A stretch of 64,000 nt of DNA from contig CALSUG010000001.1 in assembly GCA_943789475.1 (NCBI GenBank), forward strand, positions 1-64,000, given 5' to 3'. This DNA is from an uncultured Alphaproteobacteria bacterium (GTDB taxonomy: Bacteria; Pseudomonadota; Alphaproteobacteria; Micavibrionales; UBA1664). Below, piece by piece: positions 2,514 through 17,012 of this stretch. Made by a program: the position numbers and the translations under genes. The notes under the pieces are model-generated. The model saw only the letters and a list, made by a program, of their open reading frames with translations. It ran no database searches and had not been told where the DNA came from. Each line of letters starts with the position of its first letter. The first letter of the stretch is position 1.

Positions 2514-3164
2514 ATGCGTCACAACAAAATTCATGCACAAACAATAGAACTCCTGCTGTCATCAATAACAATGACAATGGGCGATGACGGGGCAAAGGCA
2601 TCCTTCTTTTATGGAAGGCCAGGAACTCCGCATTGGGACAGGAGAATGGGAGCAGATATATACTATCATTTTGTTGAATTGAAGCTCGCGTCTCTGTTCG
2701 TGCGAAGCAACGGTCCATCATATCTGCGCGCGCTTGCGATCAGCGACATTACGAGTAAGCTGCAGGATTTTATTTCTAGTAACTTCTGGTATTTAGGCGA
2801 TGAAACTTTTGCAAAATTCCGTGATGAACCACTCAATCAGTGGATTTCTGAAGCAACTAAAGACAACCTTGCAGATGCCCTTTCAAACGCTCGTTTGCGA
2901 GTGATACTACAGTTGCGTGGCTCTGTTGTTCATGGTCGTGCTCCCGACGTTTATGATTCCAGCAAGTATCCAAAATATTATAAAAAATATAAAGCAGACC
3001 CAATTTCTGATCTGGAACTTATCGCCGCTGCATGCCTTAGAAAAACTGTTTTTGATGATAAATTACTCGTTCATGTCGATCCGAACGCAGATATCATCAA
3101 AGAAGCCCAAGCAGCAGGGCGATTGCCGAGAAGGCTAAATAACCAGTCCATCTTGAGCGAATAA
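2514..3164 (+). CDS. hypothetical, largely helical protein; possible HEPN-like RxxxxH motif (LRGSVVHGR)
   Basis: ORF 2421..3164, internal start MRHNKIHAQ; convergent overlap with 3135..4202. Confidence 0.55.
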   Translation: MRHNKIHAQTIELLLSSITMTMGDDGAKASFFYGRPGTPHWDRRMGADIYYHFVELKLASLFVRSNGPSYLRALAISDITSKLQDFISSNFWYLGDETFAKFRDEPLNQWISEATKDNLADALSNARLRVILQLRGSVVHGRAPDVYDSSKYPKYYKKYKADPISDLELIAAACLRKTVFDDKLLVHVDPNADIIKEAQAAGRLPRRLNNQSILSE

Positions 3165-4202
3165 CTCTTTGATCCGCTCATTGACAACCACCAGATCAGC
3201 CCATTGTTTCGCACCCGATGTGCGCAAGCCTTTGAACGCAGATACGTTGCCCATCTTAGCAGTTCCCACATCACAGAAGAAGTCAGAAGCTTCACCCAGA
3301 TCGTTGCAGATACTGTCAGCTCCAGCAACGCGGGCTAAATTCACTACATCAAAGAATGAGGGGATAACGACCTCTCGATTGAAAGCACTTTGCTCTTCGT
3401 TCGAAGGAATATCGTTAGGATCAACGTTCGCAGCACCATTCAGTACAGCTTTGCGTTGAGCTAAGATTAATGGCATTTCCGTCACATGCCCCAATAGTTG
3501 AAAAATTCGTGTGGCAGCTTTGGGATGGGAAGAGTGTGCTTCAACTAGCTTGGCGTCCTCGCGCTCAATCAACATTATCATCGCCGCTATGGCAGCAATT
3601 CGTGCGCGCAGGCTAGGCCATTCATCGGTAGAATATGCATCCAGAACTAGATCGATCGCATCATGGTCAGCTTGTAGCTCAAGGCAAGGCTCAACCATTG
3701 GCTTGATTGTAGCGTCTAAATCATCGAAAATACTGGTCTTACTTACACCGCGAGATGTTAGAGCAAGGCGTTTCCCACGTGCTGTTTCGCTAAGGAATGT
3801 GCGGCCAACGATATCGAAGTGGCCTAGCACAAAGTGTTGCATTTCATGAAGCATCAACCATCCCAATGACATTTGGACGGCATCTGTCTTTTCAACTAAC
3901 AATGGCGAGTGGACACCCAAAATGAAATTACTCTCGCTAAGTGCGTCATTCCACAGCGTCGTGATGGCAGGTAGGACACCACCACCGACATGGATTTTCA
4001 ATCCACCTTCTTCTCGTTCTGCCAATGCCCAAAAATCAACATCGTCGTGAAGATCGAGACGGGGAATGACAGGAAAAGGAATGCCCGTCAGTTCGGAAAA
4101 CTGAGCGAGTGCTAAATGTAGGGATTTTCGAAGATATTCGATTTTCAATTCCCTTTTGGTGCAGTCATAAATTCCGCCGAACACAAGCACATCAACCAAC
4201 AT
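3135..4202 (-). CDS. putative gluzincin zinc metallopeptidase (M48-like)
   Basis: GWLMLHEMQHFVLGHFD (HExxH), downstream ELQADHDAID and SSHPKAATRI, an M48-like arrangement. Confidence 0.7.
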   Translation of the reverse strand: MLVDVLVFGGIYDCTKRELKIEYLRKSLHLALAQFSELTGIPFPVIPRLDLHDDVDFWALAEREEGGLKIHVGGGVLPAITTLWNDALSESNFILGVHSPLLVEKTDAVQMSLGWLMLHEMQHFVLGHFDIVGRTFLSETARGKRLALTSRGVSKTSIFDDLDATIKPMVEPCLELQADHDAIDLVLDAYSTDEWPSLRARIAAIAAMIMLIEREDAKLVEAHSSHPKAATRIFQLLGHVTEMPLILAQRKAVLNGAANVDPNDIPSNEEQSAFNREVVIPSFFDVVNLARVAGADSICNDLGEASDFFCDVGTAKMGNVSAFKGLRTSGAKQWADLVVVNERIKELFAQDGLVI

Positions 4203-4274: not shown

Positions 4275-5633
4275 TTATGAGAAAACTTCCATCATATCTT
4301 TTTCCAAATCTCCAATTTCTTTTGAAATGCACTTCCTAAATAGCTTGTCCAACTCGGCCCCTTCTAGGGTCTCAATTTCTTCCAGTGATTTCTGCGGCAG
4401 GAGAATGCCAATTTCCGCTCGTTTTTGCGCATCGTCAAACTGATCGAAATTCAAAAAGTATTTTGAATCTTCATAGTTGAAGCGAATTTCGTGATATGCA
4501 CGTGTGAAAGTCTTTAAGCGTTCACGGTCAGCCGGATCGAGTACTTTTTTTGCTTGTTGTGACACGAAAGCGTCTAGACGCTTCAGCTGTTGTGTGTTGT
4601 TTGATTGAGCAAAGAAGAACAGCCATCCGACTCTTCTACCGTCAAAAATGCAACCTGATATACGAAGGTTCATTCTCCACAAGATTGGTCCCTTGTTGGA
4701 ACGATACTTCATAGCGGAAAACAACTTCATCAAATTGCTAAACATCTTTTTGTAGGATGAACTTCGAACTTCAATTTTGCTCTGGCAAAAGTGATACCCA
4801 AGATAGTCGATCCCCTCCGCCAACGAAACGAGAATACTCTTGCTACCACTTCCTACAGGGTGGCACTTAATCTTTCGCTTCGATTTTAGAAGCACTGGTA
4901 TTTCCGTAGAGAGACGTTTTGCAGTTGAATAGTCGGCTAAAACGAGCATGTCATCGACGAAGCGAAAATACTCAATTGATTTATCGGTTTCGAACTTTTT
5001 ATCCATCTCGCTTAGGTAGAGAGATGCCAAAATGTTCGAAATACTCAGCCCCTGTGGAACACCTGTGATTGGGACGCTGCCCGAACCAGAATGGCTACCA
5101 GTTGGAGTCTTAATAGCATCTTCTACTAACTTTAAAAGTTGCTTCTGCCGAATTGTTCTCCTCAAGATCCGCATGAGAATCTTGTGATCAATTGAAGGGT
5201 AGAAATTTTGAATGTCCAGCCTCAAATAGTAGTTTGACGCGGGCTTTGCGGCTGAAGTTCTATGGATTCTCTTAATGTAATGATGGGGCGGCTGCGAAAC
5301 ATGCTCGGGATATATTTCGGCGAGTAGTTCTGAGAGAAATTTCAAAACTAGTTTGTCTCGGACAGTGGGGATTGAAATTTGACGAGGGTTTTTTCCAGCA
5401 CCTTTTGAAATTAATTTCTCACGATAGGACGTATATTTGTAAGTTCCTGAACTCACCTTCCTCAGAATAATGGCGATTTCATTGTCGATATCGTTACCAA
5501 ACCTCTCAACACGAATACCGTCTTTTCCAACTGCCGCTCCACTTTCGATGAACTGCGCGTGAAGGTCGAGAAGATGAGCCTTGGTTAGGCGCAAATGGAA
5601 ACGCTTGGCGGGCTTCAAGTTTACCAAATCCAA
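4275..5633 (-). CDS. reverse transcriptase, unknown-group/defence-type
   Basis: RT motifs: YYLRLDIQNFYPSID, GVPQGLSISNILASLYLSEMD, YFRFVDDMLVLAD; no group II intron maturase domain seen. Confidence 0.9.
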   Translation of the reverse strand: MDLVNLKPAKRFHLRLTKAHLLDLHAQFIESGAAVGKDGIRVERFGNDIDNEIAIILRKVSSGTYKYTSYREKLISKGAGKNPRQISIPTVRDKLVLKFLSELLAEIYPEHVSQPPHHYIKRIHRTSAAKPASNYYLRLDIQNFYPSIDHKILMRILRRTIRQKQLLKLVEDAIKTPTGSHSGSGSVPITGVPQGLSISNILASLYLSEMDKKFETDKSIEYFRFVDDMLVLADYSTAKRLSTEIPVLLKSKRKIKCHPVGSGSKSILVSLAEGIDYLGYHFCQSKIEVRSSSYKKMFSNLMKLFSAMKYRSNKGPILWRMNLRISGCIFDGRRVGWLFFFAQSNNTQQLKRLDAFVSQQAKKVLDPADRERLKTFTRAYHEIRFNYEDSKYFLNFDQFDDAQKRAEIGILLPQKSLEEIETLEGAELDKLFRKCISKEIGDLEKDMMEVFS

Positions 5634-6229
5634 AAAATTGAGCCTATACTAGCGACCACGACTGCTATCGGCAGGATCACCAGTAATAAGTGGTGTATTG
5701 CCCAGCGAACTAACATCCAAAATGACCACGAAATCGGGGTGCCAGTCGGGCTATGCATATTCTTTTTGTTGGGAAAGGTTCTACCAATAACCAAGCTTTC
5801 GTAGTCTGTGTCAGAGTGATTTGGGTACGACGACAAAATATCATGGTACTGTTGTAGAAGTTCTGAGGCGTTTTCGTTGCTATCATGTAATCTCTGCAAT
5901 CGCAGGTAACACTCACGATGCAGTGTAGCGATCTCGCCAAATTTGAAGCCAAATACAATTATTGACGCTGCAAGAATGAACACCGAATAAACTACTGTGT
6001 AGGCATCGAGGGGCACTTCCGCTGGAAGTAAGTCCCGTAACAGGGTAATCGCTATGACGATGATGGATAGCATTGAAAGTGCTAAATGGGATATGACGTC
6101 ATACCTTCGAAATCGACGTTCAGCATAAATTCGAGATTTGCATGTTATCCAAATACGATCTTTCACTTCAATATTCTCTTCAGTCATCTTCGTCAAAATT
6201 CTTTCTCCAAATAGGCGTGTGCGGGACAA
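5621..6229 (-). CDS. SLATT-like two-TM protein, predicted membrane effector
   Basis: TM helices (HLALSMLSIIVIAITLL; AYTVVYSVFILAASIIVFGFKFGE), helical E-rich middle, C-terminal TM; stop overlaps RT start by 13 nt. True start may be 6187. Confidence 0.65.
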   Translation of the reverse strand: MSRTRLFGERILTKMTEENIEVKDRIWITCKSRIYAERRFRRYDVISHLALSMLSIIVIAITLLRDLLPAEVPLDAYTVVYSVFILAASIIVFGFKFGEIATLHRECYLRLQRLHDSNENASELLQQYHDILSSYPNHSDTDYESLVIGRTFPNKKNMHSPTGTPISWSFWMLVRWAIHHLLLVILPIAVVVASIGSIFWIW

Positions 6230-6429
6230 GATGTTCTAAGGATTATCCCCTCCGAAGAAGGTAGTGATGAAGTAAACTTCACCGCTCGAATGTAAACACT
6301 CGCGTACCTAAGTTCAGCCCTTTCGAGCTAGCAGCATAGCTGCTCCCCCGCACACTCGCCCAAGGTGCCTAACTGATTGAGTTTTGTCTACCAATAGTTG
6401 TTGCATAGCATACGAATGTAGTCGCATGA

Positions 6430-6842
6430 GTTACACGCCAATAAGATCACCCTCAATCGACAGAACCTGCGAATTGTGTTTCAGATGACACCAAACGCTG
6501 AGATCCCTGCGGCCATCGTACAGCACTAAGTCGTGCTGCGAGATGTGGGTCAAATGACCCGTTGGCGCTGCGACCCTATGGGCACCTTACAGCACTAAGA
6601 TGTGCTGCGAGATGTGGGTCTATGACCCATTTACGCTGCGATCCCTTCGGACACCTTCCGCCAATAAGTGATGGCGCGAGATGTGTGTCAGATGACACTA
6701 GACGCTGCGATCCATGCGGACAACTTCCAGCATTAAGGAATGCTGCAAGATGTGGGTCGTTGACCCGTTTCCGCTGCGACCCTACGGACAACTTCCAGCA
6801 TTTCTTAATGCTGCAAGCTGTGTGTGGTAGTACCACACGTCT
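6430..6842. repeat. array of about 5.5 tandem ~69-bp units, each with two strong hairpins (and a weaker third)
   Basis: Units start 6497, 6567, 6635, 6704, 6773 (gctgcgaYcc...cagcac-loop-gtgctgcgagatgtgggtc-loop-gaccc); degenerate half unit before 6497. Confidence 0.9.
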
Positions 6843-6848
6843 TGACAA

Positions 6849-7117
6849 GGGGGCTGCTGCGCTCCCCCGTTGTATCCCCCAAAGCTGATGGCCGAGATTG
6901 GCACTGAGCCAGTCACGACCATGCAAACATATCTGTGTTTGATCCCTCGTCGGGGAGATTTCATCTCTCCCCAACACCCCATATCCCAACCGTTCGCCGA
7001 TTGAATACCGCCAGCTTGTCAAAGCTGAACTTGATCAAGGGGCGATGCTCAGCCCCTTGAAACCCTCGTCAATCCTGTGGTGGTTGATCGCCAATCAGGG
7101 GAGCTTGTCCGCTCCCC
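6849..7117. promoter_or_regulatory. four GC-rich hairpins in the ardA leader
   Basis: GGGGG..CCCCC 6849-6868; GGGGAGAtttcaTCTCTCCCC 6952-6972; CAAGGGGC..GCCCCTTG 7036-7059; GGGGAGC..GCTCCCC 7098-7117. Confidence 0.6.
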
Positions 7118-7315
7118 CAATACCCCCATGACAACTAGGGCGGCTGCCCCCGCGCAGATCAAAGGGTGGGTCCTCGCCATGCTCGGTTCGCTGCGCTGCA
7201 CCTGTGCGTGGCTCTGGTCCTGCCTATGGCACCTTTGATCCTTGCCCCCCGCTCCTCGGCGGAAGCCAGACGGGTTTATGCGCAACCCGTCAGAACAAAG
7301 AAGAGGAACAAGACA

Positions 7316-7822
7316 ATGCCGCAACTACACGCTCAACCGTATGATATTTCCGCCAATGGCTTCTATTTTGAGAGCCTTGAAGAATATTCGACAAAAGCGA
7401 TCAGCAACCGCAACGATTACGGCGATCCCGTCGAAGAATATGAAATCCAGTTCATTGATGGCGATCATATTGATTGTGATCTGACCAAGGCATGGGCGAT
7501 CAACCAAGCCAATATAGGGCCGTATTTTGATGCCTGCGAAAGTTGGGAAGACCACGACAAGCGCGTGTTTATCATCGCCGTTGGCGAGGTTGGATATAGC
7601 TTTGACCCCGCGACCGTTTCACCATCTGGTTTTGATGTTGATATCTATCACGTGGACAGCATGAAGGAACTGGCGCAGCAGTTTGTTGATGAAGGCATCT
7701 TTGGCGACATCCCTGACCATCTAGCCAACTACATTGATATGGATGCCATCGCCTATGATCTGGCTATGGATTACACCGAGACAGAAATCGCAGGCGAACG
7801 GCTAATCTATCGGGTGGCTTGA
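7316..7822 (+). CDS. ardA: ArdA-family antirestriction protein
   Basis: MPQLHAQPYDISANGFYFESLEEYSTKA...NRNDYGDPVEEYEIQFIDGD...INQANI...VDSMKELAQQFVDEGIFGDIPDHLANYIDMDAIAYDLAMDY. Confidence 0.93.
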   Translation: MPQLHAQPYDISANGFYFESLEEYSTKAISNRNDYGDPVEEYEIQFIDGDHIDCDLTKAWAINQANIGPYFDACESWEDHDKRVFIIAVGEVGYSFDPATVSPSGFDVDIYHVDSMKELAQQFVDEGIFGDIPDHLANYIDMDAIAYDLAMDYTETEIAGERLIYRVA

Positions 7823-13581: not shown

Positions 13582-15246
13582 TCAATCGTGCATGCTGCGC
13601 CCAAGTGCCTTGAGTTCTGTATCTTCATGCCATCTGACTTTGGTTGCACGTAGCGGATGCATGTTTTCAAGGAAGGCGATTTGATGGGTTTGGGGGAAAC
13701 GCATCAATTCATCTGGAAAGGCCAATTTGCGTTGGGCTGGGGTTGATGTGTCTGACATCGACGACGACTTGCCACTTTCAGAGAACGTCCGAGAAACAGC
13801 ATTGCTAAATGACCAAACCGTAGTTTCACCGCACAGGCTAGAAAAATACTCAGCCGTCATTTTGTCACTCGAACCAAAGTAATTGATCATCCCCGAGTTT
13901 GAAACGAAGCTCTGCCAACCCTTGTCGTAGATACGATCCAACTGGTTGAAATCCTGAACAATACCCCAAATCTGCATGCCATACCCTGCCATGAGGCCAT
14001 AGGCCTGCTCAACCATTGCTAGACGACCCAGAGCAGCAAATTCATCCAACACGAATAGAATGGATTTTTCAGGTTTGGTTTCAATGTTGCGCGCATTCAC
14101 AGTGATTGCTTGCTGCACTAACAGGCGCAACCAACGGCCAAAGGTGTTTAGGCGATCTGCAGGCAGCACCAAATAAATTGTCATAGGCTTTGTTTTAAGG
14201 TCTTCAAACTTGAAGCTTGAGGTCATCATATTCATGCGAATGCGATCACTGTCCAAGAAATGTGTATGCGCTTGCGCGGTGGCAATCACACTTGCTTTAA
14301 GCTTTTCTTCCTTTTGCAAACTTCTTGCACCCGTGCTGCTGACGATTGGGTGGGGTGATTTTTCCATCTTGGCAAAAGTCTTATCCAGTTCAGATTGTTT
14401 CTGAACCAAAAGTTCACGCACACGCGGCAGATGGCGCTTACCATCCTCCTCGGCATCAGTTGCAACATGCATGATTAAGCCTTGGAGCAAGGCCTTGGCT
14501 TCCTCATCCCAAAATGGGTCTTTGCTATTGCCTTCAACGACGAGTGCCGATGCAAGCAGCATCGCATTTTCTGGCAAGTCGGGATCACTGGTATCAAGCC
14601 AATCCAACGGATTAAAAGCAGACACCTGAAGGTCATCTAGCGGGGTAATCGCCCATGGATCAACGATATGGATTTCATGACCCATTTTGTGGCGTGCCTC
14701 AGCGGTGCTGAAGGCGTTCTCCCCCTTAGGATCAATCACCAACGCCGACCCCTCATAGGTCAACAGGTTTGGAATGATCTGCGTGGTGCCTTTGCCCGCT
14801 CTGGTGGGTGCAACGGTCAACAAGTGACGATCACCCTTGTAGGAAACCCATTCCAAATCGCCTTGAGCATTTTCAAATTGCCCGATGCGAATGCCATCGG
14901 TGCCAAACGCCTTTTTCTCAGAAACATCTTCATGCGTCGCCCAACGGCTAGAGCCAAAGGTTGTTGGTTTATCAAAGAAGCCAGCGGCAAGACCGCCGAG
15001 CCAATAGGCAAGCCCAAACACGAATGCACCGATTGCCAACAGGACAGCTGCATTCCAGCCCAGAATATTATTCAGGAATATGGTCGCAAATACCAACACA
15101 CCTGCGATGACGTATAGTGCGATTTTGCGAAAAGCAGCAGATTTTGGGGAAAACAGCCACCCTAGCAAAAAGCCGACACCAAACGATGCTACGACCATGA
15201 CGATACGTACAATCGTCATGCCGAAATAATAAATGAGTTCATCCAT
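13582..15246 (-). CDS. type IV coupling protein, VirD4/TraG family
   Basis: N-terminal TMs, Walker A VAPTRAGKGTTQIIPNLL, VIDPKGEN, Walker B ILFVLDEFAALGR. Confidence 0.95.
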   Translation of the reverse strand: MDELIYYFGMTIVRIVMVVASFGVGFLLGWLFSPKSAAFRKIALYVIAGVLVFATIFLNNILGWNAAVLLAIGAFVFGLAYWLGGLAAGFFDKPTTFGSSRWATHEDVSEKKAFGTDGIRIGQFENAQGDLEWVSYKGDRHLLTVAPTRAGKGTTQIIPNLLTYEGSALVIDPKGENAFSTAEARHKMGHEIHIVDPWAITPLDDLQVSAFNPLDWLDTSDPDLPENAMLLASALVVEGNSKDPFWDEEAKALLQGLIMHVATDAEEDGKRHLPRVRELLVQKQSELDKTFAKMEKSPHPIVSSTGARSLQKEEKLKASVIATAQAHTHFLDSDRIRMNMMTSSFKFEDLKTKPMTIYLVLPADRLNTFGRWLRLLVQQAITVNARNIETKPEKSILFVLDEFAALGRLAMVEQAYGLMAGYGMQIWGIVQDFNQLDRIYDKGWQSFVSNSGMINYFGSSDKMTAEYFSSLCGETTVWSFSNAVSRTFSESGKSSSMSDTSTPAQRKLAFPDELMRFPQTHQIAFLENMHPLRATKVRWHEDTELKALGRSMHD

Positions 15247-15267: not shown

Positions 15268-16020
15268 CTATCGTGAAAGACCAAGATCACGCCCGCGCCG
15301 TTTTACGGTCGGTGGAGACGACTGAGTGGGACTGAGTGACCGGCGCATTTTTGACGCCAACAGTTTTCGCTCTTCGGCATGTTTGCGTCGGAGTTTTTGG
15401 AACTCTCGCTGCAACGCACGGCGTTCCTTGATGTGTTCTTTGACCATGAAATCGCGCTGATCTTGATCGCGTTTTGCAGCCTTGCGGGCATCCAATTCGT
15501 TTTGTTGACGGATGGATTTTGCCTGCCCTGTAAGGCGATCAAATAGGCCACGCAGGCCCTTGCTGAGGCGGTCAGAGCGGGCTTTGGTTTCTTCCGCCCA
15601 ACGTTTGGTTTGACCGTCATTCAACCGCTGGCGCTCGTCTCGGTGGGCGTTGTTCATATCCCGCAGTTCGTCGCGCAATGGATCAAGGTCGCTGTTCTGG
15701 CGGTCTTTGATCTGGCTGATATAGCCGCGCATCTGATCTGTGATTTTGGAACGGATGGTGGATTGAGTTTCATCGACGGATGGCAGGTTTTCAGGGGAGC
15801 CGAGTTTGGCTTTCACATCTTTGGCTTTGATGCCCGTCCATTTGGCAATCGAATGAACATTGCCATCGGCATCCAAGGCAACGAACCCACGGCGATCACC
15901 ACGCGCGAGAAAATAACCGCGATCTTCGAGTGCATTCTTAAAACCGATCTGACTGTCGCATCGCTCCCATGCTTGCTGAAACGCCTGTTTGATCTCACGC
16001 GGATCAAGCCCTTAGAGGGT
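15268..16020 (-). pseudogene. relaxase/mobilisation protein C-terminal part, 5' truncated
   Basis: Open frame GLDPREIKQAFQQAWERCDSQIGFKNALEDRGYFLARGDRRGFVALDADGNVHSIAKWTGIKAKDVKAKLG... continues from the junction into ORF 15268..15876. Confidence 0.75.
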
Positions 16021-17012
16021 AAGTACATGTTGCTTTTCACCCATTTAAACAAACCTTTTATATAACCAAGGTATTTCCTTTGTGTGCTTATATCTAGAGC
16101 AGGTAAACCTAAACTTTTCCCTATAGTAATTTGTTCAGGTAATGCCTTACCTTTTATTGCCTCCGTTTTAGTCCTATTTGTTGGGGTCGACATGATATTC
16201 TTTTTTACATTTCTGACAGCATCATGATCAGTCAATAAAGTTGCGATGTTATAATCACGTCCTAACAGCTCAATAAGATAATTCATTTGCTGTTCATATG
16301 TTTTTATAGTGTTTGCAGAAACAAGATTTTGTATCTCTTCTAAGTATTGATCAACAATATCACCAAGTTTATGAGCCTTTGAAACCTCTGTATGTTCTAC
16401 AGTACCATTAAGCAATGTGTAGTTTGTTACTTGAGAGTTATAATTCAAAAGATCGTTGATATAATTCAATCGAGCATATTTATAAAACTCTCTCATCTTG
16501 ATATAATCATCACTCACCTTATTGATATCAATTCCCTTTTCATCAACAATTCTTTGAATAGTCTTATCGACATCATACTCAACATCATCATCATCAAGAC
16601 CTGCTAACAGATACTCAAGGGTGTCATCATGTTTCTCTTGAATGATTACTTCTAAATCATTCTTAACTTTTTGAAGATTTGCGACATTGGCCTCAGGCAA
16701 CACACCATCTTTATCAATTTGGCTTTTTGCACGTTCTAATACGCCTTTATAATAATCAATATAAATAGATCTTATTTCCTTATGATCCATAGGTGTATTT
16801 TCCAATCGCTGTTTGAGTTTCATGCTATGATATTCCAATATCTTAGCCAAGTATAATGCTTGCTTTGGACACCTTGTTTGTAATGAGATAGATACACGGT
16901 TTTGTGTAGATACTGGGTAGCGAAAGTAATAGATCGCATGTCTTGAACGGATCAAATGACTGGGATTAAACATGTTTAGGTCGCACCTTTCGGTTACACC
17001 TTGTTCATCCAC
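16020..17012 (-). pseudogene. tyrosine recombinase/integrase, N-terminal part only
   Basis: MFNPSHLIRSRHAIYYFRYPVSTQNRVSISLQTRCPKQALYLAKILEYHS... with core-binding region; catalytic domain missing and ORF runs out of frame into relaxase DNA. Confidence 0.8.

Follow-up and report, generated by a model that had tools for sequence, protein, structure and literature searches.

What is a tandem array of double hairpins, lying between a defence system and an antirestriction gene in an uncultured alphaproteobacterium, derived from, and what does it do? In the 64,000-nucleotide stretch of DNA analysed here (the window), the array extends from 6428 to 6841 on the plus strand and consists of five units of about 69 bp and a degenerate sixth, with two hairpins, A and B, per unit. 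The unit starts given in a first-pass annotation (6497, 6567, 6635, 6704 and 6773) are all correct, and every stem pair it quoted is present in the sequence; the degenerate unit is placed at 6428-6496. TRF reports the array at 6495-6822, with a period of 69 and 4.8 copies.

Units 1 (6497-6566) and 2 (6567-6634) share CAGCAC/GTGCTG as hairpin A and GGGTC/GACCC as hairpin B, unit 3 (6635-6703) has CGCCA/TGGCG and GTGTC/GACAC, and unit 4 (6704-6772) combines CAGCATT/AATGCTG with GGGTC/GACCC. Unit 5 (6773-6841) has the same hairpin A as unit 4, while its hairpin B, GTGTGGTA/TACCACAC, coincides with the inverted repeat of an origin of transfer (oriT). The outermost unit keeps hairpin B, with hairpin A decayed; it scores 52.8 bits (E=3e-12) with model R1 and 35.3 bits with model R3, having been among the six units from which R1 was built and also used in building R3. 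The layout of hairpin A is CA.CTT, stem, TAAG loop, stem and C(A/G)AGATGTG, after which hairpin B follows, and CA.CTT and AAG.TG form a longer outer stem. The loops had been described as freely variable, which is not quite the case: the loop of hairpin A usually contains TAAG, and in 21 of 33 units this lies exactly 8 nt before C(A/G)AG.

A protein repeat can be ruled out, because unit lengths of 70, 68, 69 and 69 bp break any reading frame. The fold, on the other hand, is strong on both strands: compared with dinucleotide shuffles, the 413 nt are more stably folded (z=-5.7 on the plus and z=-6.8 on the minus strand), and none of 100 shuffles is as good. Among the six window units 7 of 19 pairs have changed on both sides, compared with 2.5 in shuffles (0 of 500 reach 7), and 86% of the cells pair, compared with 29-41% in slid registers. 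For held-out units the corresponding fraction is 87%, and double changes occur in 34 cells, where shuffles give 13; these alignments are fitted to the model structure and units within one array are related, so the counts do not represent independent events. In total, pairing is maintained across 17 loci.

The compensatory stem changes first read from the window are thus borne out, both there and in homologues, including the held-out ones. They had been ascribed to selection on the structure of RNA or single-stranded DNA and not on protein. Protein is indeed excluded and the compensation holds, but covariation alone is no proof of selection, since the two arms of an imperfect palindrome can also be made to match by template-switch repair. 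Such quasi-palindrome correction is a known mutation route and can mimic covariation.

The repeats and hairpins are real, but they do not form a standalone element, as the last unit is continuous with a 71-bp site at 6812-6882 on the plus strand and the last hairpin of the array doubles as the inverted repeat of that site. The site is composed of a CAAG box, the inverted repeat, CTTG, a GGGGG/CCCCC hairpin and TTGTATCCCCC, that is, a conserved inverted repeat beside a nick-like sequence. It scores 93 bits with the oriT model R2, of which it is itself a part. Plasmid pTF4.1 and one genome (G123) have homologues immediately upstream of their mobC-relaxase genes, and a Levilactobacillus plasmid has a weaker one next to mobC. 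Further, in the family of Phaeobacter sp. 11ANDIMAR09 an oriT of this class is present in 39 of 298 sampled genomes. When 39 sites (36 distinct) are aligned, 97% of the cells are paired and 10 of the 17 pairs show double changes, in an alignment that is fitted to the structure. Judged by its sequence, the site is an oriT of the MOBP/MobC type, and nicking is predicted.

Each unit of the array is a copy of the left half of this oriT. Of the 39 oriTs, 18 show a TAAG box, 8 variable bases and a CAAG box ahead of the inverted repeat, and 12 of these 18 lack an array; where there is an array, a left arm complementary to the 8 variable bases is present, and hairpin A is the result. The array very probably descends from the oriT, with the left half of a MOBP/MobC-type origin copied in tandem and in part decayed. 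Since the unit repeats part of such an origin, extruded or single-stranded DNA during conjugation appears a likelier reading of the structure than RNA. In several oriTs the TAAG box is preceded by a GTACTAC motif, which is similar to the central part of the oriT inverted repeat; at L245, L246, L231 and L281 it is followed by T-rich sequence directly left of the box.

Other MOBP origins are nicked at TATCC, and here we would expect the nick near the TATCC of TTGTATCCCCC, at about 6875-6882. If so, the plus strand would be the one transferred, the ArdA-like antirestriction gene (ardA; 7313-7822, plus strand, Pfam ArdA 5e-7) on the far side of the oriT would belong to the leading region, and the array, in this inferred orientation, would enter last. 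Antirestriction genes usually sit in the leading region (PMC11541004). Between the oriT and ardA, at 6941-7118, there are more GGGG/CCCC hairpins that recall the one in the oriT; an ACCC-type motif comes after each of them. The ardA leader at 7150-7260 (GATCAAAGGGTGGGTCC...GGCACCTTTGATCC) is conserved on plasmids of Acetobacter, Rhizobiales and Paracoccus and can form a long hairpin, with a fold no better than that of shuffles; it is a candidate leading-region element. It was also the only part matched when 6200-7320 was compared with plasmids and phages by distant blastn.

Using covariance models, we find units adjoining an oriT in 16 further loci in the family and order of Phaeobacter, 8 of them held out. 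The first 8, which were used in the refined model, comprise a second array in Phaeobacter sp. 11ANDIMAR09 and others in G801 (two), G616, G858, G600 and G750 (two); the rebuilt model then matched the held-out genomes G1115, G1038, G1095, G1014, G914, G1036, G901 and G1123. At every one of these loci the oriT overlaps the last unit, an adjacency that is partly built into the model because the terminal unit contains the oriT repeat, and the internal units are the independent evidence. Weak R1 matches in G534, G557, G690, G728 and G771 (E 0.003-0.008), as well as L281, are not counted as arrays. The number of units varies from one to five, some loci having a single unit only, and the outer units are decayed. 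The array is missing from most oriTs of the class and is therefore an optional extension, one that transfer does not generally require.

The array structure is real, wider than this window and absent from Rfam, which at gathering score matches only four tRNAs in the window. The family had not been recognised at first, but the unit is recognisable as part of a MOBP/MobC-type oriT. Neither a known Rfam family nor a REP match, the findings named beforehand as refuting, turned up: REP or BIME elements require many dispersed copies, and in the window genome the unit model finds this array only. Integron attC sites can be rejected as well, the RYYYAAC and GTTRRRY core boxes being found in 0 of 34 units. 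In viral contigs, scanning with a 17-mer pattern yielded 14 matches, all isolated and none accompanied by a second unit, and TGTGGTANTACCACA is too short to be informative there. With reverse transcriptase relatives in DRT10-carrying plasmids, partially checked by tandem-repeat search and blastn, no such array was found. No description of such arrays was noticed in the papers retrieved by the literature searches, which does not prove that none exists.

On its other side the array borders a defence system. The UG17 reverse transcriptase gene (4275-5633, minus strand, PADLOC RT_UG17 6e-142) and a SLATT gene (5621-6229, minus strand, PADLOC RTasSLATT 6e-61, Pfam SLATT_5) make up DRT10, the name given to UG17 together with a 137-nt ncRNA upstream of SLATT (PMC12632851). 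A predicted ncRNA with a long-stem fold (GUGUGCGGG/CCCGCACAC) lies in the position described there, at about 6217-6356 on the minus strand and outside the array. The array itself is not this ncRNA, which is about 137 nt long, directly upstream of SLATT and always found with the UG17 reverse transcriptase, as it lies upstream of the predicted one. Nor is it a part of DRT10, since arrays elsewhere adjoin Gabija, Hachiman or SIR2-HerA instead.

Where the cargo could be identified, the array borders it and the backbone of oriT and ardA is on the opposite side. The cargo is DRT10 in the window and at L003, Gabija at L211, SIR2-HerA at L232, Hachiman at L233 and the candidate defence gene PDC-M11A at L234. 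Complete related islands have mobC, a relaxase, VirD4, ardA and a serine recombinase; the Phaeobacter island has mobC, a MobA/VirD2-type relaxase, VirD4, a large serine recombinase and an oriT on whose far side ardA lies. In the window mobC lies kilobases from the oriT, the VirD4/TraG coupling protein gene is at 13582-15246 (minus strand, Pfam T4SS-DNA_transf 2e-86) and the relaxase gene is a C-terminal remnant at 15268-16023 (minus strand), 37% identical to the C-terminal part of the G123 relaxase and with one stop within the matched stretch. From their gene content, the array-bearing islands look like mobilizable elements that carry defence genes as cargo. Beside the window cargo, at 3135-4202, there is a gene of 355 aa with weak similarity to Lit (2.5e-7), and similar-looking genes occur in other islands. 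In the Phaeobacter island a retron-like reverse transcriptase is inserted between oriT and ardA (L003:2611-4380), so cargo is also taken up on that side of the oriT.

The window and the Phaeobacter island are identical from 1.4 to 6.75 kb (about 5.4 kb of cargo), except for one 655-bp gap, and diverged on both flanks. The right-hand crossover falls inside the array, at the 3' end of unit 4 (about 6754), and the Phaeobacter array has one unit fewer. The two hosts look to be of different orders, because a gyrase-family protein of the window genome is 59% identical to that of Phaeobacter and 70% identical to those of two members of its own order.

We lean towards the view that the array is an extended, structured arm of the oriT, predicted to help the relaxosome and to serve as homology for cargo exchange. 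What is directly observed is where the array lies, its homology to the oriT, the covariation, its place at the border of the cargo, a single crossover and a single change in the number of units. According to this proposal the units, read as extruded or single-stranded hairpins, would help MobC and the relaxase to assemble or act beside nic, much as the tandem TraM and TraY sites do in F, and repeats at the cargo border would also provide homology for swapping cargo, through which the number of units changes. It is supported by the oriT homologues just upstream of mobC-relaxase genes, by the order of TAAG box, eight bases, CAAG box and inverted repeat common to units and oriTs, and by the covariation in units, held-out units and the oriT inverted repeat. 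It is weakened by the window relaxase being a remnant and by unit numbers and outer decay of the kind a passive array would show. For service to the relaxosome, taken by itself, our analysis would put the chance slightly below even.

The main rival is that the array is a passive by-product serving no function: slippage or unequal crossover would duplicate oriT halves, the palindromes would stay matched through template-switch repair, and the copies would decay away from the oriT. The variable unit number and the decayed outer units fit this, as does the ability of quasi-palindrome correction to imitate covariation, and hairpin A is somewhat more alike between neighbouring units than across arrays (mean identity 0.73 versus 0.66, a weak difference). 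Against it, inner units keep their flank boxes while the stems differ, and pairing is kept across the 17 loci, an upkeep that exceeds what is expected of neutral copies, though it is no proof. We regard a purely passive origin as rather unlikely.

It is also conceivable, but improbable, that the units form a dedicated platform for exchange, where the relaxase, another recombinase (and not merely RecA) or host machinery would recombine folded copies of part of the oriT and so swap phage-defence cassettes during conjugation. The array being the cargo border, with one crossover inside it, is in line with this, and so is an arrangement in G016, where two inverted oriT copies about 1.5 kb apart (L059:5050-5119 and 6588-6657) flank one uncharacterised gene; that pair adjoins a large serine recombinase. 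However, the left borders cut the unit at varied points, as homologous or random crossovers would and one fixed site would not, the crossover point is away from the expected nick, and attC core boxes are lacking. A transcribed structured RNA, either a non-coding RNA or a leader read by RNA-binding proteins or DRT10, is very improbable despite strong folds on both strands and covariation, as arrays adjoin unrelated cargo and an oriT every time, G-T wobble counts single out no folding strand, Rfam has no match, and 6180-7340 holds no sigma-70-like promoter, which is weak evidence in this group.

If the oriT-arm reading is true, a long array of half-sites conserved in shape and not in sequence can form part of an origin of transfer, which would suggest that folded DNA is recognised well beyond the nick hairpin. 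The oriT and unit models further give a handle for finding defence-carrying mobilizable islands in Rhodobacteraceae. In one case, a complete defence system has been exchanged between islands whose hosts seemingly belong to different orders, with a crossover located at the oriT arm.

The oriT class is known, and what appears to be new is the tandem structured half-site arm on it. The oriT of pTF4.1 and the mobC-nic module of RA3 (PMC4175270) have the same CAAG/CTTG-armed inverted repeat, GGGG/CCCC hairpin and C-rich nick-like end, and in RA3 the ribbon-helix-helix protein MobC binds a palindrome and stimulates transfer (PMC4175270). Such sites stand upstream of mobC-relaxase in pTF4.1 and G123. 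However, oriTs of the pTF4.1/RA3 type have no tandem array, while here mobC is kilobases away and there are up to five repeats of the left half.

In how it might work, the arm is best compared with the oriT of F, where the relaxosome is assembled and transfer made efficient with the help of tandem sites for TraM (sbmA-C) and TraY (sbyA, sbyC) beside nic (PMC12117103). Both have repeated accessory sites in one stretch beside nic, but the TraM and TraY sites are double-stranded sequence motifs, whereas hairpin A keeps its pairing as the stem sequence changes. REP and BIME elements likewise have alternating short palindromes in tandem; the array is not dispersed and is tied to one oriT. The ncRNA of DRT10 is also structured, adjacent and upstream of the SLATT-RT pair (PMC12632851), but the one predicted here is a separate 140-nt fold, and arrays are also found in elements without DRT10. 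Integron attC sites, finally, similarly keep structure with a variable stem sequence and have exchangeable cargo next to them, but they have core boxes that the array does not, and its 69-bp units follow each other with no genes between.
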